A DNA stretch of 28,568 nt from a virus. The DNA lies in IMG/VR virus record IMGVR_UViG_3300047457_000176, positions 1 to 28,568 of that record. One strand, given 5' to 3'. This document shows positions 7,344-24,818 of this stretch, piece after piece. The number at the start of each line of letters is the position of its first letter. Positions within the stretch are counted from its first letter, which is position 1. The notes below the pieces were generated by a model. That model was not told where the DNA came from. It did no database searches and worked only from the letters and a program-made list of their open reading frames with translations. Made by a program: the position numbers and the translations under genes.

Positions 7344-7982
7344 ATGGACACGAACACAATAAGGGGTTGGGTTGAGATACTAGCAGCGGTTTTTGGAGCG
7401 ATGACGGCAGCGGTAGGGTTGTTTGTCGCACTCAGGCCAATCTTTAGGTATTTTAAGAAAAGAATAGCAGTCAGGAAAGAAGAAAAGTTTAGCCATGTAA
7501 ACATGCGTATATCAGACATGATAAGTGAACTCAGGATGAAAACCAAGGCATCCAGAGTATCCCTGACTCAGTTCCATAATGGTGGAAAGTTTGCTGATGG
7601 TTCGTCCATGCGTAGGATGAGCATATCCCATCAGTCCTGTGATCCAAAGATAGGCTCGACCATGCAGTTCAGACAGGATGTTCTTGTCAGCAGATTCGTT
7701 GAGATCATACAGCAACTGCGGGAGAACAACCCAAACATAAGAACAACCGATTCTCTTTTTGAATCCAACACCAAGAAGTTCTATGAACTCCATGATACCA
7801 TGGCTTTCTCAATACTGCCGTTATTTTGCAGCGATAGTTTGGTTGTTTATGGATACATAACAATTGAGTGGTGTGAACTGGATGTTCTAGATCATGTTGA
7901 TGAATCGAATGTCAAGACAGAGTTTGAATACTCACGCGATCAGATTTCTTTCCTCCTCAATTCGGCAAAAGACTATAGATGA
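7344..7982 (+). CDS. Membrane-anchored protein with a GAF-like domain, possible regulator or T-holin-like protein
   Basis: This 212-residue protein has one N-terminal membrane segment at about residues 9-32 (WVEILAAVFGAMTAAV then GLFVAL), a very basic stretch (RPIFRYFKKRIAVRKEEK), and a globular domain with SRVSLTQFHNGGKFADG followed by a SISHQS segment. The strand-then-FHNGG pattern is one I associate with GAF-like domains of phage proteins; no ligand or catalytic motif is evident. Near the C-terminus, PLFCSDSLVVYGYITIEW resembles the PYFNLDNIYAGTITMYW segment of T4 holin T, which is 218 residues with one N-terminal membrane segment. The positive charges after the membrane segment favour a cytoplasmic domain, unlike T. 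It has its own promoter candidate and overlaps gp25 (ATGA). Confidence 0.7.
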   Translation: MDTNTIRGWVEILAAVFGAMTAAVGLFVALRPIFRYFKKRIAVRKEEKFSHVNMRISDMISELRMKTKASRVSLTQFHNGGKFADGSSMRRMSISHQSCDPKIGSTMQFRQDVLVSRFVEIIQQLRENNPNIRTTDSLFESNTKKFYELHDTMAFSILPLFCSDSLVVYGYITIEWCELDVLDHVDESNVKTEFEYSRDQISFLLNSAKDYR

Positions 7983-10223: not shown

Positions 10224-12217
10224 TGAATGTACTACCACTACTATTCACTGGAACTGCTGGGCCTCCACCACAAACGCTTGCTCTATCTGAGGAATCCCCT
10301 CGGATAATCAAGAGGTTTGGTCCTAGTAATCTAATAGTAGATCAAGTACCAGATTTCATAAACAGGGATCATACTACCTTTCGTGCTTTTGTAGAAGCAT
10401 ATTATGAGTGGTTGGAAAGATCGGAAAATCCTTTTGGAATAATAGATGGATTCGTGGATCTCATGGATGTTGATCGAAGTCTATCAATATTCTTTTTGGA
10501 TTTCAGAGAGACATATCTGAAGAACTTTCCATATCAGTTGGCCAGAGACTCCAATGGAAATGTTGTCAGCGAGGCCAACTTTATAAAGAATGTCAGATCC
10601 TTCTATAACGCTAAGGGAACTGAAAAAGCATACAAATTCCTGTTCAGACTTCTATACAACACAGCAGCAGAAGTATATTATCCCGCAAAGGACATACTTC
10701 GTATCTCGGACGGCAAGTGGTTTGAGCCGATATCTGTCAAGACCACAAGTAATGGAGGCACAGCAAATTACGCTATTGAAGGTAGCAGAGTATATCAACT
10801 AGATCCAATCACAGGAGAAGTTGTAGGTTCTGCTACCGTGAATCAAGTTATTCAGTATAGAAAAGGATACTATGATGTAACTGAGATTTTTCTGAAGGAT
10901 CTAATAGGTGACTTTGTACCGAATCATTCACTTAAGTCAACTAATGATGCTTTCAATGAAACGATTTATCCAGTTGTAAGTCGAGTTGAGGTTATTTCTG
11001 GTGGACTAAACTATTCTAGAACAGATCCGTTAGTAATAGGGAATAGCGGAGATGGAATAGGACTTTCGGTTGGAATAGAGACAATTAATGAAAAGGGAAA
11101 GATACAATCCATAAAGGTGATGGATTCTGGAATTGGATATCAGAACGGAAAGGTGAGCGTCGGTTCATCGACAAATACTGGCGATGGAAATCTATCAACT
11201 AAAGTTGTGATTGGTGGTGTTACGAACTATCCTGGCTACTATGCCAACAATGATGGAAAACTAAGTTCAAACAAAAAAATATTCGACTCTTCCTACTATC
11301 AAGACTTTTCCTATGTCTTGAAGAGCGAGATAGCGTTCAAGGAATACGCAGAAACATACAAAAAACTGATACACCCAGCAGGCTTCAAAATGTTCGGAGA
11401 AGTTCTGCTTAAGAAAAACATAATAGATTCCCTACCATTCCATTCCGAGTTTCAGCGATACGAGATCGCATACATCGGACACTACACTCCCTACAGAATG
11501 GGAACCACCGCCGACCTTTACTACTCCTACCTCAACGGATTCAATCCGCGAGGAAATACGTTCAGCACCTTCCAAAACTATGGCTCAAGTGGTGGCAAAC
11601 TGATATTGACTCCCGTTGGATTCACCTTCTCCCCTGGCATGACCTGGGCGAGTATTGCTGCATCAGGTTCCAACGGAAACATCATTGTTGGTGATCTATT
11701 TGAGTTTGCCTACATGGGGGAAACCAGGGCCGCATTCTACTTGAAGACAATAGATTTTGACTTATTGAATGGATCTTCCATAACTGGTGGGGGATTTGTT
11801 GAAGGTAGTACTATTTCTCTTGTTGGTGGTAACGGAAATACCGCAACCATAGAGATGGTTAGATTTGGACTTGGTATAGTTCCAGAGGCTGGATTCAGCC
11901 ACGATACACAGGGAGCACCGCTAGGAAGCAGCCTCGGAGTGGAGGGATACATAGAAGCGCAGGGATTCAGTTATTCGTATTGGGAAGTCTATCATCACCC
12001 AAACATCAGAGGAATAGTTGGGCTGACAAGTATGTGGGCAACAGGAACTGGTGCTGGTGCATCTTTTGGTGCCGTTTGTCTGAAGCCATTCTTCAAGATG
12101 CCAATCGGATATCACTTCCATTCAAACCCAGTTGGCACTCCTTACTTCGGAACAACTGGTGCAAACAATGAGTATGGTCTAATCGAAAGTTCATCACTAG
12201 TATCACCGAATTTCTAA
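10223..12217 (+). CDS. gp7: Baseplate wedge protein, gp7-like
   Basis: This 664-residue protein follows gp6, as gene 7 does in T4. The N-terminal 150 residues show FRAFVEAYYEWLERS, a D-V-D-R-S-L...FF..F..TYLKNFP block, and FYNAKGTEKAYKFLFRLLYN leading to VYYPAKDILRISDGKW. I recognise this as the gp7-like wedge protein of T4-like phages outside the coliphages. Near residues 250-265 and 295-310 are two copies of an I..V..SG.GY/NY repeat. At about 355-395 is YYQDFSYVLKSEIAF and HPAGFKMFGE. The C-terminal part (about 410-664) is Gly/Ser-rich beta structure and may be an outward-facing domain. It is much shorter than T4 gp7 (1032), so assignment rests on position and the N-terminal pattern. Confidence 0.65.
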   Translation: MNVLPLLFTGTAGPPPQTLALSEESPRIIKRFGPSNLIVDQVPDFINRDHTTFRAFVEAYYEWLERSENPFGIIDGFVDLMDVDRSLSIFFLDFRETYLKNFPYQLARDSNGNVVSEANFIKNVRSFYNAKGTEKAYKFLFRLLYNTAAEVYYPAKDILRISDGKWFEPISVKTTSNGGTANYAIEGSRVYQLDPITGEVVGSATVNQVIQYRKGYYDVTEIFLKDLIGDFVPNHSLKSTNDAFNETIYPVVSRVEVISGGLNYSRTDPLVIGNSGDGIGLSVGIETINEKGKIQSIKVMDSGIGYQNGKVSVGSSTNTGDGNLSTKVVIGGVTNYPGYYANNDGKLSSNKKIFDSSYYQDFSYVLKSEIAFKEYAETYKKLIHPAGFKMFGEVLLKKNIIDSLPFHSEFQRYEIAYIGHYTPYRMGTTADLYYSYLNGFNPRGNTFSTFQNYGSSGGKLILTPVGFTFSPGMTWASIAASGSNGNIIVGDLFEFAYMGETRAAFYLKTIDFDLLNGSSITGGGFVEGSTISLVGGNGNTATIEMVRFGLGIVPEAGFSHDTQGAPLGSSLGVEGYIEAQGFSYSYWEVYHHPNIRGIVGLTSMWATGTGAGASFGAVCLKPFFKMPIGYHFHSNPVGTPYFGTTGANNEYGLIESSSLVSPNF

Positions 12218-12218
12218 A

Positions 12219-14522
12219 ATGGCAAACAACGCTCTAAAAACAAATCTTAAAACCGACCTAATCGACCTGATAAAGTCGATGATAACGAATAGCAACTACT
12301 ACTATCTGTTTGTCGGTAGGGCTACCCCATACGAGGACAATCCATCCACGGTAAATGTTGAAAGTGACACAAATCCTCCATCAATCGGAGAATCGTCAAG
12401 AAATCAATATGATGCATACAGAAACATGATGTTTGCAAAGAGGGTAAGACCAGAAAACATCAGATATATCATTCCAAGAATAGACTGGACCTACGGGAAT
12501 GCGTATACGGCATACTCCGAAACCACAGACATGGCTGGAAAGTCTTTCTATGTGATCACCACAGACTTCAACGTGTACAAGTGCATGGGAGCAGTGGGTG
12601 CATCCACCATAATGCCAACTGGAAAGTCAACCGACACCATCACCCTGTCTGATGGATATAAATGGAAATATCTTTATACGGTTCCCGAGAATGATATAGA
12701 GTATATCACACTTGAGTACATTCCAATCTTTGTATCTCTTGGAGAATACCCTGAACAAAGAGAGGTTCAGAATGCGGCAAAGCCAGGAACCATAGATGTT
12801 GTTTCCGTAAACGCATCTCTCAGTCCAACATTTTCAAAGATATTTGCCACCACCAGACTAATGACCAATATCTACAGACCTATCATTAGTTCTGAACTTG
12901 GTATAACGGTCAATTCTGCGGGTTCGACGTATATTTCATTTTCTCCTGTCGGTGAGGATGGGGATCCAAGCACTGGATTCTGGAACAACTATGCCATATA
13001 CGTCAGCGGTGGTTCTGGAGTTGGGCAATACTTCAGAATTCTGAATTTTGTCAAGGGTGGTTCTGGAATAACCTACTACTATGCTAGCGTATATCCAGCG
13101 GTTGATAGGGATTTGGATGAAACCAGTGTGTTCAAAATAGTACCAAATGTTGTCGTTGATGGAGATGGATCGGAGGCGGTGGTTGTTCCACAAACATCCA
13201 GTGATAAGAAAATATCATCCCTATCAATAGTGAATGGTGGAAAAAACTATTCATATGCAAAACCAAGAGTTACCACTGAAAGCGGAAGCGCACTCATAGG
13301 ATCTCAGGTGTCTCTGTTCAACGACTCCATAACCACTAGCCTTTCAACTCCAAAGGGACACGGGTATAACGCGGTAAAGGAACTTGGATCCTCCGACATA
13401 ATGATAGTGGTTGAGATTGAGGGTACTCAGAACGACAAGATAACGGTAAGAAATCAATATAGACAATTTGGACTGGTGAAAAATCCATTCCTTCAGGGTG
13501 GATTGACGTTGGCTGGTTCTGATCTTGAGAACATATATGAAGTTCTCATAAGGAAGCAACCAAATAAGGATCAACCATATAATACGGATACTTTCGTTAC
13601 TGGAAATTACATATTTGGTAAAGAAACTAGGGCCACGGCAAAGATAGTTGATTGGCAAACCACACCTGGATCAAAGTTTCATAAATTGATCATTACTAAT
13701 CTTGTTGGAAACTTTAGATTATCCGATGAGGCTTCTGATAGCGTTAGGGTTCATTATGCAAGTGGATTCTCGGCTCCATTTGCGACAGGAGATACCGTAA
13801 ATCAATACAGCAATACAATAGGATTAACCCTATCAGCGACTGGAACTATAACCTCACATGACTACTATGATAGAAGCCTGGTAATCGACACTACTCTTGG
13901 CTCTTTTGTCAGCGGAAAGACTATGACTTTCTCTGGCGGTTACACACTTAGTGGAGCAAACATAGTGGATGTAGATGAAGTGTTTGGAGAATATATTGGG
14001 CAGTTAGACTTTGGATCCACTAGTGGTAGTGAATTCCTTACCTTCAGTGGGGATGAGATTTTTGGTAGGATAGCATCAACCGTCTTCTCTCCAAGACTAA
14101 CCACAGACTTTGGGGAATACGATCTGACAACAAAACTAACACTCGTAGACAGCAGCAGTTCATTTATTGATGGTATCCTGAATAGTCAATCAGCCCTTGA
14201 TGGAACAATCTCTCAGATTGATTCTATTACCCTCAAGAAAGTCACTGGAGATATAATTGATTTTACCGTTGCTGGTGGAGTTGGATTCACTGGTATTGCA
14301 AGTCTTTCAAACGTGAAGGGTGTCTTCAACTCAACAGATGCGCTAAAATTCACTCCATATGGTTCCACGGCAGAAGTATCTCTGACAACGGTTTCTATAA
14401 ACACCATACAGCAACCAGAGTTGAAGATAGGATCGGGCGATCTGTTATACATAGAAAATATACGTCCGATTGAAAGAAATTTGGAACAAATGGAACAGTT
14501 TAAGATTGTCATTGGTTTCTAG
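12219..14522 (+). CDS. gp8: Baseplate wedge protein gp8, enlarged
   Basis: The N-terminal third matches gp8: YYYLFVGRATPYEDNPS near residues 27-43, an AYRNMMFAKRV stretch near 67-77, IDWTYGNAYTAYSET, FNVYKCMGA, and SDGYKWKYLYTVPEND near 145-160. In T4, gp8 dimerises and binds gp7 and gp10 on the outside of the wedge. T4 gp8 is 334 residues and this protein is 767, so over half is added material, mostly beta-rich and Gly/Ser/Thr-rich. One unit near residues 330-345 (LSIVNGGKNYSYAKPRVT) is like the repeats in the upstream gp7-like protein. The start is one base after the previous stop and lacks a strong ribosome-binding site. Confidence 0.85.
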   Translation: MANNALKTNLKTDLIDLIKSMITNSNYYYLFVGRATPYEDNPSTVNVESDTNPPSIGESSRNQYDAYRNMMFAKRVRPENIRYIIPRIDWTYGNAYTAYSETTDMAGKSFYVITTDFNVYKCMGAVGASTIMPTGKSTDTITLSDGYKWKYLYTVPENDIEYITLEYIPIFVSLGEYPEQREVQNAAKPGTIDVVSVNASLSPTFSKIFATTRLMTNIYRPIISSELGITVNSAGSTYISFSPVGEDGDPSTGFWNNYAIYVSGGSGVGQYFRILNFVKGGSGITYYYASVYPAVDRDLDETSVFKIVPNVVVDGDGSEAVVVPQTSSDKKISSLSIVNGGKNYSYAKPRVTTESGSALIGSQVSLFNDSITTSLSTPKGHGYNAVKELGSSDIMIVVEIEGTQNDKITVRNQYRQFGLVKNPFLQGGLTLAGSDLENIYEVLIRKQPNKDQPYNTDTFVTGNYIFGKETRATAKIVDWQTTPGSKFHKLIITNLVGNFRLSDEASDSVRVHYASGFSAPFATGDTVNQYSNTIGLTLSATGTITSHDYYDRSLVIDTTLGSFVSGKTMTFSGGYTLSGANIVDVDEVFGEYIGQLDFGSTSGSEFLTFSGDEIFGRIASTVFSPRLTTDFGEYDLTTKLTLVDSSSSFIDGILNSQSALDGTISQIDSITLKKVTGDIIDFTVAGGVGFTGIASLSNVKGVFNSTDALKFTPYGSTAEVSLTTVSINTIQQPELKIGSGDLLYIENIRPIERNLEQMEQFKIVIGF

Positions 14523-14534
14523 GAGCAATAGCAG

Positions 14535-17500
14535 ATGCCTTCTTACGATTCAGAACTCTTTAATGTAAGTCCATATTATGACGATTTCAATGAGGACAAG
14601 AAGTTTCTGCGGATGCTTTTCCGTCCAGGATATGCAGTACAATCAAGAGAACTGACCCAACTACAGACGATACTACAGAATCAGATTGGAAAATTCGGAG
14701 ATCACATCTTCAAGGATGGTAGCGTTATCATAGGTGGACAGATAACCACCCAGACTCTGAATTTCGTCCGACTTGTCCCGCAGTCTTCACAGACAACTCA
14801 AACTCCAGTGGCAAAGACCATTACAGCAGAGGATGTTGTAGGGTATAACATAATTCAGAGAGATGGTGGGAGTACGGGAAATGTTGTAGCCAAGGCAAAG
14901 GTTGTCGATCTCCTTCCAGCGCATAGTGGAGCGGACAACTATGCTGTCGCTGTCATCAGTTACATGTCTGGAAACGAGTTTACCGCAGGCGCAACAGTGG
15001 AGTTTGATACTCCGAACCTACTTTATACAAACATTTCTCCATCTTCAAACAGCGTACCCCACAAGGGAAACTGCCAGACAGTTGCTGTTGCTGAGGGAAT
15101 ATTCTATGTAAATGGATTTTTCGTAAGAACCAACAATCAACTTCAACCAGCATACACAATCTCGGTTGACGATATACGAGAGTTCAGTGATCCCACTGGA
15201 TCCATGGGATTCTCCGTCAAGTCGGTGATTGTGACTGACCGAGATGATTATACTCTCAGAGATCCCGCAAATGGATCATACAATTACAACGCACCTGGTT
15301 CTCATCGATACAGAATAGATCTTGAACTTGCATTTACTGGAGTATCCGATCAACCAGACTTCTTTGAACTTGTTCGCTATAGTTCTGGAGAGGTTATACG
15401 AAAGTTTGATCAGACTCAATATCCAGAACTCGTAAAGTTGTTCGCTCAGAGAACATACGATCAAAGCGGAAATTATGTTGTAAAGCCTTTCTCCGTCACT
15501 ATGAAGGAGAAGGATTCCACCAATCTAGTTGCTGAGATTGGAACAGGTAAGGCATATGTCTATGGTCATGAGTATGAATCGGCCTTCAAGGATCAGGTAG
15601 AAGTACCAAAGGCCAGGGATACGGTAATCTATGAGAATGTTTTCGCTGGAAATAAATTTGAAAACTATGTGATAGGAAAGTACAAGACCCACCCAAATCA
15701 AACAAATCAGTATTTTACAGATAGCACCCCTCTATTTGAACAATATACGGAGACTATAGGAAATCAAGATCCAAGTTCTACAGCAATTCAAGTCTATGGT
15801 ACAACGGGTGGCCCAATCGGGGTTACTGCTTATCTTTCCTATGGGTTTTCTGGAGCAGTTTTCAATGCATTGATGCATAGACTTGAGTTTGTGTCAGCAA
15901 ATTCCTCGGATTCATTTAAGGCCAGCGAAGGAAACACTGGAATTGAGGTGAAGGCATTTATCTCTAATATGCTTGTGAGAAGAGAGCCTACATCAACCTC
16001 ACAGAATACTCTTCTAAATCTATATGCGATCAACCCACTTAATGGACAATCGAAAAGGGTATTGTTTGATCTAACTACTCTTAGGGATTTTGGTGGAACA
16101 AATAGTCTGCTACCTAAGTTCAATAACTTCAATGGTCAACGATTGATTTATCCCCTAAACGGAAGTTCTTCGACAACCTTGATAAAGGAAGTTGAAGATC
16201 TTTCATACGTTCACACAGTCTGTAGATCATTCTTTCATCAGTCTGGTGTTCCTCAAGTAGTGCCAGCATCAGTCCAACCACAAAATGCGGATTCGTTTAG
16301 ATGGTGCATACGCGGGGGAACAGTTCCAACCACGCAGGTTAATTTGTCGGAAGATGATGAGTACTATCTTGTGTATACAGCCACTCTTGGTACTGGTGGG
16401 CAAAATCCAGCCAATGTCCCACAAAATGGCTTTGTGAGAAGAATATATGGTGTAGGCAATGCTCCCGCACCAAGAACAGAAAGCGGAACATTAATTTCGT
16501 ATCCAACCGCAAAGATCGTAGACGCTGGCAATGGACTACAGATTACAACACCCCTTGAGTCTGGTCAGTATACGGTGATAGGAAGAGTAAAAGCAAACAA
16601 CACCGACATCAATCAAGACACGACTGGAGAAATAAGAACAAAGAGTCTTGTTGGAATAACTGCTGAAACATTGACGAGCACCTCCGAGACAAATAGAAGA
16701 ACCGTGTTTACTGGTAGTAGTGGTGGTGATCCATATTCGATGTATTTCCGCCTAAACAAGGCAGATGTGTATAAGATTGACAGCATAGTTGGTGCTACTG
16801 GAACTGATATCTCCTACAAGTTTGAATTTGATTCTGGACAGAGAGATTCCATATATCAACTGGCAAGGTTGTACGTCAAGCCGAAGTATGTGCAAGACTT
16901 TATTGGATCATACAATTTCACGGTATCATACAAGTATTTTGAGCATTCTGGATATGGACCATTCGTTGCAGAGTCTTACAAAAACTCGGGAATATCGTAT
17001 GAAAATATTCCAGTATTTGTTGATCCAAATAGCGGGAGGTCGATAAATCTCGCAAACGCAGTCGATTATCGTCCAGTGGAAACAATCGTCGGATATAGGC
17101 AACGAGGTGGAACTCAGTTCAGTCTGAATCCAACTTTCAACGACAATGTTCCTATATTCGAATACCGAGGTGGATTTGTCCCATTGAACAATAGTGTGGT
17201 GAGTACAAACGAGTCTTATCTGCCAAGAATAGACAAACTAGTAGTATCAAAGAACATTGCTGCTGATGGAGAAACAACAACCCTAAGAAGAATTCCAGGA
17301 ATTCCAAGCGATGTACCGCAAATACCAGAAGATCTAAATGAGTCTATGACTCTTTCGATTCTCAGCATACCAGCATACACCCACAATCCCGAGGATGTCA
17401 AAATACAGTCTGTTGCAAACAACAGGTTCAGCATGAAGGACATATCAAACATGTCCAAGAGAGTTGATGACATCGAACAGCATGTAATACTTAGCGATAT

Positions 17501-20219
17501 AGAATCCAGCATACTCTACAGAAACATAACAACGTCAACAGGTCAGGACGCAATCAAGAGGGCCATCTTGGTCGATACCTTCAACGGTCACTCAATTGGA
17601 GATGTGTTGAATCCAGATTACAGGTGTTCGGTCGATGTCGAGCATGGAGAAATGAAACCAGCATTCGATTCACATGCTTATAGCATGGAATACATTGGGA
17701 ATGATCCAGGATTGACTCTCACCATAGACAACATCCTGTGCGAGACATATACTCGTTATTCAACTCCAGTTGTGGAACAGAGTAAGTCTAGTTCCAAGAC
17801 ACAAGTGAATCCATTTGGATTCCCAAATTGGGTTGGTAATATGTTCTTACGTCCCCACGGAGATTTCTGGTTTGATAGGGACTTTAGACCAGTTGTTAAG
17901 CGAAATGATGATGGGATGAATGATGCTTGGTTGACTGGAAATGTCGATGGTCTCAATGGGCATGGAACCCAATGGAACGATTGGGAAAGCCTATGGACGG
18001 GTATATCCACCGAACTTACCGATGCCGAGAGCAGAAAGAATGCAAAATTCTTCGCACAGAGTAGAGAGAAATCAAACGTGGATGCCATTGATAAGAAGTT
18101 CTACAACAAGGGCATCTCAAGAGAGACCGATCTTGCAGATTCAGTCGATAGGCTATACGCATCGGATTTCCGTAAGAAAGACTACTACTACAATGTGTCC
18201 ACCGATACCGTCATAAATGGCAGTGTTGTACCATATATGCGCGATCAGGTGATCATTTTCAATGCAGCAAACATGAAGCCAGGAACACAGGTCCATGTGT
18301 TTGTTGACAATGTTAATATGAATGATTTGTGCTATCGTGTATCCATAGAATCCAGCGGAGCATCTGGAGGCACAGTGTATCTTCTCGGATCCTGCGGTGC
18401 TTCTGGTGCTGGTCCGTTTATGACAGATCAGTTCAATGGATCTCTGACAAATGTGGTTGTCAACATACCACGCGGATTGTTTGAGGTTGGAGAAAAGGTA
18501 ATACGGGTAATAGATGATCCAAACAACAACCTTGAAAATGCAACAACTGTTGCGGAAGGCGTTTTCTACTGTAATGGAATCAAGAATCAGAATCTTCTTG
18601 ATGTTCAATCTGTACGTCCACTTGAGGTGAGGAAGCAAACTCCAAATAGCAACAAGGTTGTATCAACTCCGCTGTTCAGGCGAAAGAACATAAACACCAT
18701 AAAGTACAATAACTGGATCGATCCGATGGCTCAGACCTTTGAGGTGAGAGATGATTTGTATCCAAATGGATTCTTCGCGGAAAGTGTTGATCTATACATC
18801 GCAATGGCAGACGATGAACTACCAATAACACTACAGATATGCCCTGTGGTCAATGGAGTCCCAAATACCTCCATTGCCCTCCCGTTCAGTACTGTTGTCA
18901 AGACTCCAAGCCAACTAAGCGTGGATTCTACAACTCCAACTGCAACCACATTTAAGTTCTCCACTCCTGTATTCCTATCACCAGGTGAATATGCAATAAC
19001 CCTGCATACAAACAGCACCCTGTACTCTGTCTATACAGCAACTATAGGAGAAAAAGATCTAACCACGGACGAAAGAATATCCGCCACCCTATCAACGGGA
19101 TCTCTGTTCAAGTCTCAAAATAACTCAGAGAGTGTTGGGGAGAACAATACGGATTTGATGTTCAAGTTGTATAGATGTGCTTTCCCAAATCAAACCGCAA
19201 CAAGGACTCTATCTATTCGAACATTGGCTGAGGAAGATGCCGACGCTATCACGAATATTTCCACCATTCAACCAAATCTTTTCGTGTTCACCCCCGATGA
19301 AGTGACTATCTCTGGATCTTTGGAAGCGGGTTCTCCTGCAAAGATTTATTCCTTTACCAATAGTAGAAATATTCATCTGAGCAATGCAATATCTCAACTT
19401 GATGATTCAACTCCAGTTGAACTTGATCTCGTCGTCAAAAACAACAGCAGCGGCATCAATACTTTCATGATTGATATGGATAAAACCAATGTTGTCGCTG
19501 CATCCTATCTGATAACCACTGGTCCGACCATAGAGGTCGAGGCTAATCCGAATGCATTCAGACCAAAAAGAAGCCGAGTGAAGCGCGGTGGATTTGGAAT
19601 ATTCGGATTGGTTTTTGGTGCTATTCTTGGATTCGCCACATTCGGTGTTGGTGCTGCTATTGCGGGCGCGGCCATTGCTGGAACTGGTGTTGCGACTGCA
19701 ATCGGCACGGTCGGCGGCGGTGCTATCGGCTACGGTCTGACCAGCAGAGGAAGAAGGAAGTGGACCTATGGTAAGAGACTTCTAATTCCACAATACATCA
19801 GCAATCCAATTGAAGACGATCCAGTAGCCAACAGACCTGGGGATGAGACTGCTAGGTACATAACAAGGTATGTTACAATACCAAATGGAGTTACCGCTAA
19901 GGAACTTAAGGTCTATTTCGATGGAAATATTCCAGATGGTACCTTTGTCGAGGCACATGCCAAGACATACGACACCACTCAATTGTCTGAGAATCCAGAT
20001 GTTCAAGTCTACAGAAAGATGACATTGCAGCCAGCCAATCTGTTTCAATCCGAATCCATATCCAACTTCTCGAATAATGACTATGACTTCAAGGAATCTT
20101 TCTACTCATTGGTCGCCCCGAACAACTTCAACACGTTTGTAGTGAAGTTGTGCATGTATAGCAACAACAAGGCCAAGGTTCCAACAATCAAGAATCTGAA
20201 AGTGGTGGCAATATCATGA
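14535..20219 (+). CDS. Giant virion structural protein, DUF4815-type, with a glycine-zipper insert
   Basis: At 1894 residues this is the largest product. The N-terminus carries the DUF4815-type opening: PYYDDFNEDKKFLRMLFRPG, YAVQSRELTQLQTILQNQ, then FKDGSVIIGG. Further typical blocks are SGQRDSIYQLARLYVKP and a YKYFEHSGYGPF stretch near residues 770-810, an NAVDYRPVE segment near 840, and, in the last quarter, NWIDPMAQTFEVRDDLYPNG followed by a jelly-roll-like FSTPVFLSPGEYAITL. This family is found as a large baseplate-periphery or fibre-base protein in T4-like phages; it may take the place of gp9, gp10 and gp11, which are not seen here. An Ala/Gly-rich hydrophobic stretch at about 1685-1735 is flanked by basic clusters. 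AGGAG lies 9 bases before the ATG. Confidence 0.82.
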   Translation: MPSYDSELFNVSPYYDDFNEDKKFLRMLFRPGYAVQSRELTQLQTILQNQIGKFGDHIFKDGSVIIGGQITTQTLNFVRLVPQSSQTTQTPVAKTITAEDVVGYNIIQRDGGSTGNVVAKAKVVDLLPAHSGADNYAVAVISYMSGNEFTAGATVEFDTPNLLYTNISPSSNSVPHKGNCQTVAVAEGIFYVNGFFVRTNNQLQPAYTISVDDIREFSDPTGSMGFSVKSVIVTDRDDYTLRDPANGSYNYNAPGSHRYRIDLELAFTGVSDQPDFFELVRYSSGEVIRKFDQTQYPELVKLFAQRTYDQSGNYVVKPFSVTMKEKDSTNLVAEIGTGKAYVYGHEYESAFKDQVEVPKARDTVIYENVFAGNKFENYVIGKYKTHPNQTNQYFTDSTPLFEQYTETIGNQDPSSTAIQVYGTTGGPIGVTAYLSYGFSGAVFNALMHRLEFVSANSSDSFKASEGNTGIEVKAFISNMLVRREPTSTSQNTLLNLYAINPLNGQSKRVLFDLTTLRDFGGTNSLLPKFNNFNGQRLIYPLNGSSSTTLIKEVEDLSYVHTVCRSFFHQSGVPQVVPASVQPQNADSFRWCIRGGTVPTTQVNLSEDDEYYLVYTATLGTGGQNPANVPQNGFVRRIYGVGNAPAPRTESGTLISYPTAKIVDAGNGLQITTPLESGQYTVIGRVKANNTDINQDTTGEIRTKSLVGITAETLTSTSETNRRTVFTGSSGGDPYSMYFRLNKADVYKIDSIVGATGTDISYKFEFDSGQRDSIYQLARLYVKPKYVQDFIGSYNFTVSYKYFEHSGYGPFVAESYKNSGISYENIPVFVDPNSGRSINLANAVDYRPVETIVGYRQRGGTQFSLNPTFNDNVPIFEYRGGFVPLNNSVVSTNESYLPRIDKLVVSKNIAADGETTTLRRIPGIPSDVPQIPEDLNESMTLSILSIPAYTHNPEDVKIQSVANNRFSMKDISNMSKRVDDIEQHVILSDIESSILYRNITTSTGQDAIKRAILVDTFNGHSIGDVLNPDYRCSVDVEHGEMKPAFDSHAYSMEYIGNDPGLTLTIDNILCETYTRYSTPVVEQSKSSSKTQVNPFGFPNWVGNMFLRPHGDFWFDRDFRPVVKRNDDGMNDAWLTGNVDGLNGHGTQWNDWESLWTGISTELTDAESRKNAKFFAQSREKSNVDAIDKKFYNKGISRETDLADSVDRLYASDFRKKDYYYNVSTDTVINGSVVPYMRDQVIIFNAANMKPGTQVHVFVDNVNMNDLCYRVSIESSGASGGTVYLLGSCGASGAGPFMTDQFNGSLTNVVVNIPRGLFEVGEKVIRVIDDPNNNLENATTVAEGVFYCNGIKNQNLLDVQSVRPLEVRKQTPNSNKVVSTPLFRRKNINTIKYNNWIDPMAQTFEVRDDLYPNGFFAESVDLYIAMADDELPITLQICPVVNGVPNTSIALPFSTVVKTPSQLSVDSTTPTATTFKFSTPVFLSPGEYAITLHTNSTLYSVYTATIGEKDLTTDERISATLSTGSLFKSQNNSESVGENNTDLMFKLYRCAFPNQTATRTLSIRTLAEEDADAITNISTIQPNLFVFTPDEVTISGSLEAGSPAKIYSFTNSRNIHLSNAISQLDDSTPVELDLVVKNNSSGINTFMIDMDKTNVVAASYLITTGPTIEVEANPNAFRPKRSRVKRGGFGIFGLVFGAILGFATFGVGAAIAGAAIAGTGVATAIGTVGGGAIGYGLTSRGRRKWTYGKRLLIPQYISNPIEDDPVANRPGDETARYITRYVTIPNGVTAKELKVYFDGNIPDGTFVEAHAKTYDTTQLSENPDVQVYRKMTLQPANLFQSESISNFSNNDYDFKESFYSLVAPNNFNTFVVKLCMYSNNKAKVPTIKNLKVVAIS

Positions 20220-20387: not shown

Positions 20388-23003
20388 ATGCCAACAGGTC
20401 CAGCAAATAGCAACTATCAAATTCCGACACTAACGCTATCTGATACTTTCTACGAGTGGTATAGCCTCACAAACAATGAGGTTATCGATAAACTCAACAG
20501 AATGAAGGTCTATCAGATAGCGGGTGCTTCTGGAATATCTGCAAGTCAGGGTAATGACGGCATCGCTACCGTGTCCTTGGACACCATCATTCCTGGAGAT
20601 CATACATTCACAGGGAACATCACTTTTGATGGAAGTGTTACTACGGTAAACACAAATCTCATCACAATAGATGACTACAATCTTGTTCTCGGAGCAGTAA
20701 ATTCAAGCGGCGGAACTGGTGGAACCTCGGATACTATAATCACCAACTCGGGTGGCGGTGGTATCATAATCGCAGGTGCTTGCGGAGACAAGTATCTTCT
20801 TTGGAAGGCTTTTGATGGTGGAAAAACCTATTCTGCATGGAGGATAAGCGACAGCCTTGCCTTCGCTGGAGATGCAAGGCTTTATTCTGGAAACAACAAG
20901 TTCGTGCTCAGTGAAGGTGATGACAGCACACCAGCATCAAAGGTGATGATCACCACGCATAGCACAGGTTTAACAGTCGATGTTGAAACATATTTCGACT
21001 CTCCAGGAAAAACATATGGTGCCATTAGTTTTCTGAGTGATGGATCATCAAGGATGATAAACTCATCCATGATCAAGAGATTTGATGGAATAACGATGGC
21101 ATTTAGTTTTGGATCCGTTGTTCGTCACGATGTAAGCACCAATGGTCTAACCCTTGCTCTTGCAAACAATGGGATAAATGCAGAGTCACTTGGAATAGTG
21201 GTTGGGTCAAATGGGACAGCAGAAACAGTCGATGTCTGCACCATAGGATATGTCGGTGGGAACTTCTCAAGTGCAATAGATTCCCTTGATGCAGCAACGT
21301 CCCTTGGAACTGGTGAGTTCTATTTCCTTTCAAGCAATGAGGCTGGAAAGATAACCAAGACTGCTCCATCGGCAACAGGAACCATTAGAAAGCCAATACT
21401 ATACGCTCTCGGTGGTGACAAGGCCATGGTGATGAACTATGTCGGCAACAAGAATGTCGATATAGACACTTTGTATTCCAAGTTGAATGCATCAACAGTC
21501 ATCATAAAGCATAGTCCAAACTATTTCTCGGTTGGAGATGTGGTTAGATTTGATGCAGGAACAACATCGGCATCATTCCCAATAGGAACATATGAGAAGG
21601 CTTCAAATCAAAGTTCAGAGGAAGCCGAAGCATTGGGAATCGTATCCAAGATAAACTATGGCGGAAACTCTGCGGCGTCCTTGATGACGATATCTGGATA
21701 TGTCGATCTATCTCTTTCTGGACTGACATTTGTGCCAGGAGCAGTGTATTTCTTGGGCAATGATAATGGAACATTGACCGATACACCACCTATAACAGTC
21801 AATACGGTTAGAAAGCCGATGTTGGTTGCAATAAGCCCGACAACTGGAATTGTTCAAAACTATGTCGGCCTCGTAATCGATTCCGATAGAAGTTCTGGAA
21901 GTAATATTGCTTCCATGCCAATCACTTCAACTGGCTTCAGGAACAAGTTGATAAATGGCAACTTCGATTTCTGGCAAAGAGGAACCACGTTCTCGTATAG
22001 AAATCCGACCACAGAACCAGATAGGTACAATGCAGACAGATGGAAACTCGTCAATAGTGGTGGAACCACCGCTGATAGACTAGGAATATCAATCAACAGA
22101 TATCCACTTGGTCTTGGTGATTTGGATGATTCATCTGTATATTCAAAGTATGCTCTTGAGATGAGCATAGGAACTGGTGGATATACGGCAGATAGCAAAA
22201 CATATCTCTTTCAAAGAGTAGAGGGTATTGAGAATCTTCCAAGAGGATTTGCCACGATTTCCTTCTATGCAAGGTCCACGAAACCAAATGTAAAATTGGG
22301 AGTATCGTTTAGACGTGATTTTGCGGGGGGAACGGCCCCAGACCATACAACAACTGGTGTGGAGAAGAACTCGCAAAAGGATGCTGGTGCTGTGATAAAT
22401 CTCACATCATCTTGGCAAAGATTCAGTCATACCTTCCAACTACCAGAATGTGATGGTGGACAACTTGGAACTGCTGGAAATGACGGTCCAGAGATACGAT
22501 TCTTCATCCGAGCGGGTGCGAACTCTGTTTCTGGAAATACTGGAGATGTAGCAGAAGCAATCAATCCAGTCTATGTCGGAACAAGCAACTACTCAATATA
22601 TCTTGCACAGGTCCAGTTTGAGTCTGGTAGCGGTGTAACCCCGTTTGAGATAGTGGACAAGACAAGTGAATTCATCAAATGTCAAAGATACTACCAGACA
22701 AATTCCGGTGGTACGACTTTTGAAAAACCATTCAGAGCGTATACGGATGGGTCATTTGGTGGTGTTTCAAGTACATTCAATCAGGACGTATTCTACGTTC
22801 CAGGAGGAAACATGTTGAGCGTCAGATTCCCCGTACCGATGAGGAAACCAGTTTATACTTTGAATGTAAAAAACCATGATGCAGCCTTTACCAGCCGTTT
22901 CAACACTCCAGCAATTCATTCATATGGATTCTGGGCATCACGGCAAAGTACAAATATTGCACAAGAGCAGTTTGTATATTACGAAGCAGATGCGGAACTA
23001 TAA
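20388..23003 (+). CDS. Tail fibre protein with duplicated module and C-terminal adhesin-like domain
   Basis: This 871-residue protein has several fibre signatures. Near residues 75-110 a DHTFTGNITFDGSVTTVNT...DDYNLVLG unit matches the beta-prism repeats common in fibres of T4-like marine phages. Residues 241-353 and 381-494 are two copies of a roughly 113-residue module (GdVVR-D ... AE-LGIV ... IRKP-L-A ... NYVG). From about residue 517 a new domain starts with FRNKLINGNFDFWQRG and a DRYNADRW motif, a jelly-roll carbohydrate-binding type seen at the ends of many phage fibres, followed by FISFYARS-like strands and a C-terminal tip from about 760. It probably recognises the host surface. It starts one base after the small coiled-coil gene with only a weak GAG upstream. 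Confidence 0.85.
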   Translation: MPTGPANSNYQIPTLTLSDTFYEWYSLTNNEVIDKLNRMKVYQIAGASGISASQGNDGIATVSLDTIIPGDHTFTGNITFDGSVTTVNTNLITIDDYNLVLGAVNSSGGTGGTSDTIITNSGGGGIIIAGACGDKYLLWKAFDGGKTYSAWRISDSLAFAGDARLYSGNNKFVLSEGDDSTPASKVMITTHSTGLTVDVETYFDSPGKTYGAISFLSDGSSRMINSSMIKRFDGITMAFSFGSVVRHDVSTNGLTLALANNGINAESLGIVVGSNGTAETVDVCTIGYVGGNFSSAIDSLDAATSLGTGEFYFLSSNEAGKITKTAPSATGTIRKPILYALGGDKAMVMNYVGNKNVDIDTLYSKLNASTVIIKHSPNYFSVGDVVRFDAGTTSASFPIGTYEKASNQSSEEAEALGIVSKINYGGNSAASLMTISGYVDLSLSGLTFVPGAVYFLGNDNGTLTDTPPITVNTVRKPMLVAISPTTGIVQNYVGLVIDSDRSSGSNIASMPITSTGFRNKLINGNFDFWQRGTTFSYRNPTTEPDRYNADRWKLVNSGGTTADRLGISINRYPLGLGDLDDSSVYSKYALEMSIGTGGYTADSKTYLFQRVEGIENLPRGFATISFYARSTKPNVKLGVSFRRDFAGGTAPDHTTTGVEKNSQKDAGAVINLTSSWQRFSHTFQLPECDGGQLGTAGNDGPEIRFFIRAGANSVSGNTGDVAEAINPVYVGTSNYSIYLAQVQFESGSGVTPFEIVDKTSEFIKCQRYYQTNSGGTTFEKPFRAYTDGSFGGVSSTFNQDVFYVPGGNMLSVRFPVPMRKPVYTLNVKNHDAAFTSRFNTPAIHSYGFWASRQSTNIAQEQFVYYEADAEL
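21108..21446 (+). repeat. Fibre module copy A (protein-level repeat)
   Basis: This encodes residues 241-353 of the fibre protein. It shares with copy B the anchors VVR-D, AE-LGIV, GYV, YFL, IRKP and NYVG in the same order and spacing. The likeness is in protein, not DNA, so it is an old duplication. Confidence 0.65.
21531..21869 (+). repeat. Fibre module copy B (protein-level repeat)
   Basis: This encodes residues 382-494 of the fibre protein. Its anchors are GDVVRFD, EAEALGIV, ISGYVDLS, YFLGNDNG-LT, VRKPML and NYVG. Confidence 0.65.
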
Positions 23004-23015
23004 AAGAGGATTACG

Positions 23016-24818
23016 ATGGGAACAAGTGCATTCGATCCAGTAGCGTTAGCAGATACTAGATCCGTAAAAAATAAAATTACAAGTCCTGGAATTACAGGCG
23101 ATGTTTTAGTAGTTGGTGATGTTATTCGATGGGATCCCGCAACGGATCTATATGTACTCGCAAAGGCCAACAACAGCGCAAACTCAAACTTTGTGGGTGT
23201 TGTTGAATCCATAGATGCCAACGGATTCACCATAGTTTACTCTGGAGAGATATCTCTTCCCGATTCGCTTATGTCAACCATAAGTGGCTCAAGCGGTTCC
23301 TATATTCTATATCTTTCAGATACTAATGCTGGAAAGTTGACCACCACTGCACCATCTGCACCAGGTAGCGTCATCAAGCCAGTTGTGATCATCTCAGGAA
23401 CAACCGAGGATATTCAGGATACCATCGATGGTGTTGTCGTCAATACCGCTGGAGATGCCATTCTTGGTGACTCGTCGGTTGACTTGAGTGAAATACAGCC
23501 TGTTGGATCAATACTTGCATTTGCGGGAAGAACAGCCGATATTCCAGTTGGCTGGGACATCTGTGACGGTGGATTCCTTGGAGTCACCGCATATTCAGAT
23601 CTTTTTGCTGCTCTTGATGATGGAAAACTATATGGGTTTATTCAGGGTGCCACACTTGAAGGGATAACCAGCAGCGGTGGCGCGATTCTGACATCACAAA
23701 ACATAGTTGGTATTACCTTGAGCATTGCAAAGAGTGGTGGAAATTCCATTGTTGGAACTATTCTATCTGGAACACCAAATGGCAATGTCATATCCAATGT
23801 CAGCATCTATATTGATCCAATCTCCGATGGAGAACAGCACAATCTTCAGTTGGACAATAATGATATTGCAAGACCTACAGGTGATTTTCTTCTATACACG
23901 GTAAAGTCACCAGTTAAAACTCACTTCAAGAAACCAGACTTGAGGGCAAGATTCATAGTTGGTGATTCAAGGGGATTCTCTGGAACCGAAATATCTGGAT
24001 TCAACACATATAAAATCGGTTTGTATGGTGGTGAGGAAGAACATACACTCACCACGGATGAGATGCCAATTCACGGTCATGGTGTGACATTTACCCAACC
24101 GACAGTCTCAGGAAACATCGGAGTAACATTCAACCTATCCACAAATCAAGAAGCATCCCACATACACCCAAATATGAAGATTTTGCCTGGTAAAGGATTT
24201 GTCAGCGGTACCAACGATGTTTATGTGAATTCAAGTGCCAACCTCACAACCATGCCCCCCGCTGGCGCACACTCACACACGATATCTGGAACCATAACCA
24301 TAAATCAAGCAAACTTTGCACAGAGCATCAGCGGTCAAGCATTGAATGCTGGTCTTGGAGCAGCGCACAATAATGTTCCACAGCACATGGTGGCAATATG
24401 GATTATAAAGACCAGAAAGGACTCTGTTGCCAAGTTGTTCCGCCTCGGCCCATCTGGTGGTGGAGCAATCATAGCAAAGAATACGGCTAAGAGATGGGCC
24501 AGAATGTCAACGCCTGGGGCTGGATGCACAATTGACGCATCATACGGAATCTGGGGAGTTACAAGGATCGGAAATGGAAACTATGAGTTCACACACGATC
24601 TTCTATCCGAACTTGGAACCGCCGATCAGAACAAATACATAGTTGAGGCAACTGTGGTAAAGAGTGGATCTGGAGCGACACAGATGTTCGTTGCAAATCC
24701 ATATAACCTTGGTGGAGTGACATTCGGTGTTCGTATCTACGATATAATGGGTGCCACATTTAGCGATAATTTCCAATATCTTGGTCTTTCTGTCTATGGC
24801 GGCGGAACTGCACTATAA
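23016..24818 (+). CDS. Short tail fibre or collar-domain protein, gp12-like
   Basis: This 600-residue protein has three parts. Residues about 32-145 are a third copy of the module in the preceding fibre. From about 162, VGSILAFAGRTADIPVGWDI-CDG is a phage tail collar domain. It is followed by RARFIVGDSRGFSG near 309 and EEHTLTTDEMPIHGHG near 340, with HSHTISG near 425 and NVPQHMVAIWIIKT ending near 464. The H-x-H pairs match the metal-binding histidines at the tip of T4 gp12, which binds lipopolysaccharide. Residues about 465-600 form an extra C-terminal domain not present in gp12. An AGAGGA site lies about 7 bases before the ATG, 12 bases after the previous stop. Confidence 0.85.
   Translation: MGTSAFDPVALADTRSVKNKITSPGITGDVLVVGDVIRWDPATDLYVLAKANNSANSNFVGVVESIDANGFTIVYSGEISLPDSLMSTISGSSGSYILYLSDTNAGKLTTTAPSAPGSVIKPVVIISGTTEDIQDTIDGVVVNTAGDAILGDSSVDLSEIQPVGSILAFAGRTADIPVGWDICDGGFLGVTAYSDLFAALDDGKLYGFIQGATLEGITSSGGAILTSQNIVGITLSIAKSGGNSIVGTILSGTPNGNVISNVSIYIDPISDGEQHNLQLDNNDIARPTGDFLLYTVKSPVKTHFKKPDLRARFIVGDSRGFSGTEISGFNTYKIGLYGGEEEHTLTTDEMPIHGHGVTFTQPTVSGNIGVTFNLSTNQEASHIHPNMKILPGKGFVSGTNDVYVNSSANLTTMPPAGAHSHTISGTITINQANFAQSISGQALNAGLGAAHNNVPQHMVAIWIIKTRKDSVAKLFRLGPSGGGAIIAKNTAKRWARMSTPGAGCTIDASYGIWGVTRIGNGNYEFTHDLLSELGTADQNKYIVEATVVKSGSGATQMFVANPYNLGGVTFGVRIYDIMGATFSDNFQYLGLSVYGGGTAL
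23109..23450 (+). repeat. Fibre module copy C in the collar protein (protein-level repeat)
   Basis: This encodes residues 32-145 of the collar protein: GDVIRWD, KANNSAN, GVVESI, IVYSGEI, YILYLSDTNAGKLTTTAPSA and IKPVV align with copies A and B of the upstream gene. Confidence 0.6.

Follow-up and report, generated by a model that had tools for sequence, protein, structure and literature searches.

A clade-restricted basic-hydrophobic-basic loop insertion in a DUF4815/VrlC baseplate protein from a T4-like gene cluster

Baseplate proteins of the DUF4815/VrlC family

The closest described system is that of gp106 from Listeria phage A511, whose trimers are reported to form the pyramids of a double-layered baseplate, of which those that face upward swing toward the host upon adsorption (PMC9863714). 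VrlC is likewise counted in the two-layered baseplate of pelagimyophages and cyanophages (PMC7029224). Proteins of the DUF4815/VrlC type occur commonly in Ackermannviridae, Herelleviridae and marine T4-like phages, and little is known of how these baseplates grip the cell while contraction takes place.

The window analysed here, i.e., the whole stretch of 28,568 bases of an IMG/VR virus record (IMGVR_UViG_3300047457_000176), carries a T4-like baseplate cluster, in which profile matches identify a tail-tube cap, gp53, gp5, gp25, gp6, a wedge protein and gp8. The 1894-aa product of the ORF located between gp8 (5') and tail-fibre PHROGs at 20388-24818 (3') can be assigned by homology to the DUF4815/VrlC baseplate proteins, as a relative of A511 gp106: it matches PF16075 (DUF4815) above the gathering score (E 1.1e-51, 176 bits; cut-off 30) and PHROG 358 (E 8e-259), and blastp gives four colinear alignments with gp106, the best at E 2e-13, gp106 itself matching DUF4815 with E 2e-197. 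This kinship, which extends to the baseplate protein of Staphylococcus phage phi812 (PDB 9EUF/9EUI/9EUJ), spans the N-terminal DUF4815 part and the beta-domains that follow it, and the AlphaFold2 fold of the C-terminal 507 residues matches the phi812 protein (9EUF; E 1e-13, probability 1.00). The gene order is also found elsewhere, since a gp8-type wedge gene lies immediately 5' of the DUF4815/VrlC gene in HTVC008M, Mosig and Melnitz. For the neighbouring gp6, the nearest relatives from cultured phages belong to Methylophilales phage Melnitz and Pelagibacter phages (~35% identity), from which a Gram-negative host appears likely for the window phage.

The window protein differs from A511 gp106, which has 1151 aa and lacks a membrane-type segment (maximum Kyte-Doolittle value over 19 residues, 1.46). 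In the window protein, such a segment is part of a clade-restricted loop insertion in the C-terminal beta-domain, with a membrane-type score, and this insertion is missing from almost all members of the family (PF16075, PHROG 358). The features are collected in Table 1.

Table 1. Positions, in the window, of the insert-carrying gene, its upstream neighbour and the parts of the insertion
Feature	Position	Strand	Basis
gp8 baseplate wedge gene, upstream of the 1894-aa ORF	12219..14522	+	PF09215, E 8e-14
DUF4815/VrlC baseplate protein (by homology), 1894 aa, insert carrier	14535..20219	+	PF16075, phrog_358, A511 gp106 homology
Insertion, residues 1674-1770 (97 residues)	19554..19844	+	Alignments; relatives of 1740-1770 aa have ~10 residues there
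Basic cluster 1, RPKRSRVKR (1676-1684), charge +6	19560..19586	+	Charge count; kept in relatives
Gly/Ala-rich uncharged hydrophobic segment, 1685-1737	19587..19745	+	53 residues without D/E/K/R/H/N/Q; window, L007 and L102 only
Predicted membrane-type helix, ~1687-1710	19593..19664	+	Kyte-Doolittle (19 residues) 2.11; summed scale -0.1; AlphaFold2 helix
Second, weak hydrophobic segment AIAGTGVATAIGTVGGGAI (1713-1731)	19671..19727	+	Kyte-Doolittle (19 residues) 1.39; summed scale 4.1; non-helical in AlphaFold2
Basic cluster 2, RGRRKWTYGKR (1738-1748)	19746..19778	+	RGR(K/R)(K/Q)W motif in 5/5 insert carriers
Conserved C-terminal half of the domain (1773-1894), from strand ARYITRYVTI	19851..20216	+	Alignment; AlphaFold2 strand 1773-1781

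Composition and membrane character of the insertion

The layout of the insertion is a basic cluster, a Gly/Ala-rich hydrophobic stretch and a second basic cluster, and the peptides quoted in the preliminary description of this DNA are in frame where it placed them (RPKRSRVKR at 1676-1684, the hydrophobic stretch at 1685-1737, SRGRRKW at 1737-1743). The flanking position of the basic clusters was also read correctly, and no other 12-mers are as basic as these two in the protein, whose net charge is -36. The uncharged run of 53 residues exceeds anything found in 2000 shuffles of the same protein (mean 17.9, maximum 50).

The hand count of 72 G or C among the 120 bases at 19621-19740 was exact (GC 0.600), and the elevation is indeed local, the contig-wide maximum of all 120-nt windows (0.633) starting at 19634. 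The shift in codon usage claimed for the same bases turned out to be marginal: four-fold GC3 comes to 0.345 for the insert, the value of the whole gene being 0.333, the resampling p for GC3 is 0.05-0.07, and the insert of a related carrier, L007, has no such shift. Since resampling of the gene's own synonymous codons nearly reproduces the GC of the core (0.560 seen vs 0.527 expected, p 0.07), the GC peak results mainly from the Gly and Ala content, and the idea of a foreign origin based on GC or codons was dropped, the signal being mostly one of amino-acid composition. A search for repeats, as would be expected from a tandem-repeat origin of the insert, found none. Similar considerations apply to the supposed glycine zipper. 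GxxxG spacing occurs 4 times vs 5.0 expected from composition (p 0.82), and small-xxx-small spacing 14 times vs 13.7 expected; with both at expectation, the term describes a composition and not a selected spacing. The Pfam Gly-zipper model (PF13488) gives the segment 8.3 bits, its cut-off being 25.

Regarding the membrane character, the best Kyte-Doolittle windows of 19 residues reach 2.11 in the window protein, 2.24 in L007 and 2.25 in L102, and the corresponding insertion energies, summed over 19 residues on a simplified scale of single-residue energies without position or length terms, are -0.1 to 0.1, -0.4 and -0.7. These are the three best summed scores among 167 distinct family sequences, followed by 1.5 (L080) and 2.2, and within the contig only the ORF at 7344-7982 scores comparably low, the remaining proteins giving at least 5.0. 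With a summed score near zero, the best helix of the window would be a marginal membrane segment. As for L080, its ORF at ~7968 has a separate hydrophobic stretch in another domain (TFALGALAAAITIKVVCAV, residues ~600-640, Kyte-Doolittle 2.08). A weak profile similarity links the hydrophobic segment to holin superfamily III (PF07332), with E 1e-4 in L007 and 0.015 in the window, although the scores (22.4 and 15.7 bits, respectively) lie below the gathering threshold of 28.4 and, unlike a holin, the segment is embedded in a large structural protein; the similarity may thus weakly indicate a membrane-type composition, rather than family membership.

The segment had been described as a membrane hairpin, which is only half borne out: one 19-residue stretch scores as a membrane helix, and the second is weak, with a Kyte-Doolittle value of 1.39 and a sum of 4.1. 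AlphaFold2, given the insert alone, predicts one helix (1687-1714, best block with pLDDT ~72) and leaves the rest disordered. Given the weak second segment and the single predicted helix, an element with one helix, or a re-entrant one, is just as likely as a complete hairpin. In the model of the C-terminal 507 residues, the flanking strands end at 1657 and resume at 1773, and the insert has a pLDDT of 24-38, as would be expected for an exposed loop without alignment support, the surrounding beta-domains being mostly at ~80-90. A comparison by sequence of the phi812 baseplate protein with the insert site gave no significant alignment.

Basic flanks on both sides are the classic topology of a hairpin inserted from the cytosol. 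One explanation is that, during morphogenesis, the loop would hold baseplate intermediates at the inner membrane of the host, on its cytosolic side, both flanks remaining cytosolic according to the positive-inside rule for a hairpin. Both flanks are basic, as this would demand, and the product of the nearby ORF at 7344-7982 likewise begins with a membrane helix; however, the second segment is too weak for a sure hairpin, a release step would be required, and the distribution of that ORF differs from that of the hydrophobic core, so that we consider such tethering quite improbable.

The loop slot across the family and its history

Alignment of relatives bore out that the segment is an insertion: residues 1674-1770, which follow the conserved ..MIDMDRTN.. 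block and precede the strand ARYITkkV, are absent from most homologues. Conservation in all homologues, half of the counter-case that the preliminary description had set against itself, proved false, the nearest relatives that lack the insert having 9-12 residues at the slot and others 27-29. In VrlC proteins of cyanophage-like type and of Agrobacterium phage OLIVR5, the slot is filled by GxGY-repeat (GSGY) modules of 84-99 residues (L068, L074, L044, L054, L095 and others). These modules share the loop and a similar length with the window insert, but consist of GxGY-type repeats, are neither basic nor membrane-type and cannot be aligned with it. The C-terminal loop of VrlC proteins appears, from these comparisons, to be a module-exchange site. 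A short basic loop (QPSRNPKNRPRRG / SGQPSRNPKNRPRRGVSHSTAVAQQDVSSVEG) occupies the slot before DDTARYIT in L103 (IMGVR_UViG_3300044645_001430), and might be an intermediate state.

Six IMG/VR contigs, the window included, carry the insert, and two of them encode the same protein (L004/L005), which leaves a sample of five distinct sequences, all metagenomic. The hydrophobic core is present in the window, L007 and L102, and in L004/L005 and L016 the core is short and hydrophilic. Basic cluster 1 is kept in all carriers as (R/K)P.R followed by more Arg/Lys (RPRRKKVKR / RPKRRRRRR / KPTRRRRRR), and the RGR(K/R)(K/Q)W motif of cluster 2 in all five. The insert alone, as a query against 50,697 phage records, found no relatives at E 10, nor were any found among genome contigs; a scan of viral contigs for GLxxRGR(K/R)KW returned the known carriers only, and profile and protein searches of IMG/VR, including those with the C-termini of L004 and L102, yielded no further ones.

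In a tree built without the insert, the topology is ((L007,L102),(window,(L004,L016))), with L103 as sister (98/100) and full support at the key forks. An arrangement of window+L007 vs L004+L016 as two sister groups was ruled out, since the L103-rooted tree splits the hydrophobic carriers. Because L004 and L016 nest inside the hydrophobic clade, the core is probably old there and was lost once, and the simplest history probably runs from a basic loop, through a hydrophobic core gained before the split of the five lineages, to a single loss in L004+L016. Two independent gains of the core could still have occurred, but are disfavoured by the fact that the window and L007 are alignable through it. 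The insert is therefore not the late acquisition once suggested: it is older than the split of five lineages that are ~60% identical, and the sister lineages L007 and L102 carry it. Between the window and L007, identity is 58% within the insert as against 62% in the rest of the protein, and the window is 63-64% identical to L004 and L016.

For the pair L007-L102, which shares 85% identity, omega rises from 0.057 (gene) through 0.075 (insert) to 0.14 (hydrophobic core), values that are rough because dS is near saturation. The core thus seems to be under purifying selection, albeit evolving faster than the rest. Its middle differs between the two by substitutions and an indel, and both remain hydrophobic; this change of residues without loss of hydrophobicity fits a selection for hydrophobicity and not for exact contacts.

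It could be argued that the site is merely permissive and that the insert has expanded and drifts there as low-complexity sequence, serving no particular function. The slot is certainly a hotspot of length (~10 aa, 27-29 aa, 84-99 aa in GSGY modules, and basic loops), and the dN of the core between L007 and L102 is raised (0.24, against 0.22 at the 95th percentile of 68-codon windows). Nonetheless, the low omega of the core (rough as it is), the hydrophobicity retained despite change, and the persistence of the basic flanks and of the RGR-K-W motif in 5/5 carriers make this unlikely.

A structural role is less easily dismissed, although still rather unlikely. The hydrophobic segment would be buried where the subunits of a gp106-type trimer meet at its apex, the Gly/Ala faces packing there, or else against a baseplate or fibre neighbour, and the basic clusters would dock on acidic surfaces of the partners. 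gp106 does form trimers (PMC9863714), 53 uncharged residues are hard to expose on a soluble virion, basic clusters in a protein with so negative a net charge could bind partners, and the insert evolves near the rate of the gene, judging by the identities of the window and L007 given above. Against it, the fold and the trimer do not need the segment, given that the close relatives L004 and L016 lack its hydrophobic part and more distant ones the entire insert, and indels in the middle of the segment poorly suit a tight interface.

A possible contact with the host envelope

The reading that we tentatively prefer, with somewhat less than even confidence, is that the basic-hydrophobic-basic loop meets the host envelope as gp106-type pyramids turn to the cell. 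Receptor binding would make the pyramids rotate, bringing the loop to the envelope, where the Arg/Lys clusters may attach to anionic lipid head groups or LPS phosphates; in phages with a hydrophobic core, the helix could then enter the bilayer and help to fix the baseplate in place, either ahead of sheath contraction or while it proceeds. That L004 and L016 keep both basic clusters without a hydrophobic core suggests charge contact as the basal function and bilayer insertion as an optional addition, the core being dispensable in that subclade, as both of its members do without it. A stronger version of the envelope contact, in which many loop copies on the turning pyramids would insert in the manner of fusion peptides and lock the baseplate to lipid, independently of fibre-receptor binding and spike puncture, seems to us unlikely.

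The arrangement of a basic stretch followed by a hydrophobic one is like that of class I viral fusion proteins, a likeness confined to architecture. It has a more literal counterpart in the possibility that a host surface protease cuts after basic cluster 1 (..RVKR|GG..) and the freed hydrophobic N-terminus inserts. The hydrophobic run does start right after the basic cluster in the window, L007 and L102, but L004 and L016 keep, and even strengthen, that cluster without any hydrophobic segment to be freed, which renders such a cleavage very improbable.

For the preferred contact of the loop with the envelope, a point of comparison is the type VI secretion (T6SS) effector Tde1, whose Gly-rich segment shows that such a stretch, once delivered by a contractile device, is able to permeabilise the membrane of the target (PMC10240207). 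The likeness lies in the Gly-rich hydrophobic segment, the contractile device and the target membrane, and is one of analogy and not of kinship: Tde1 is a delivered effector, in contrast to a structural protein of the baseplate, homology is absent, and GxxxG spacing in the window is not above composition. Within the family, a single loop offers a natural series (no insert, short basic, basic with a hydrophobic core, basic without the core, and GSGY module), which amounts to a ready set of constructs for asking whether direct contact between baseplate and lipid matters.

Two minor observations concern neighbouring genes. The ORF at 7344-7982 of the window (+ strand, 212 aa), flanked by the gp5-like gene and gp25, encodes a protein with a membrane helix at its N-terminus (ILAAVFGAMTAAVGLFVAL), whose insertion score is the lowest of the contig, and with a weak similarity to PHROG 30125. 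Members of its family were found in the L004, L016 and L103 records and not in L007, L102 or L008; a link between this ORF and the insert was discarded, since the distributions mismatch, the ORF occurring in records without the core (L004, L016, L103) and not being found in the core-bearing L007 and L102. Lastly, in L056 two adjacent ORFs (at 11411 and 14896) both contain the C-terminal part of the family, beside a separate N-terminal ORF, and the VrlC gene appears to be split and duplicated there.
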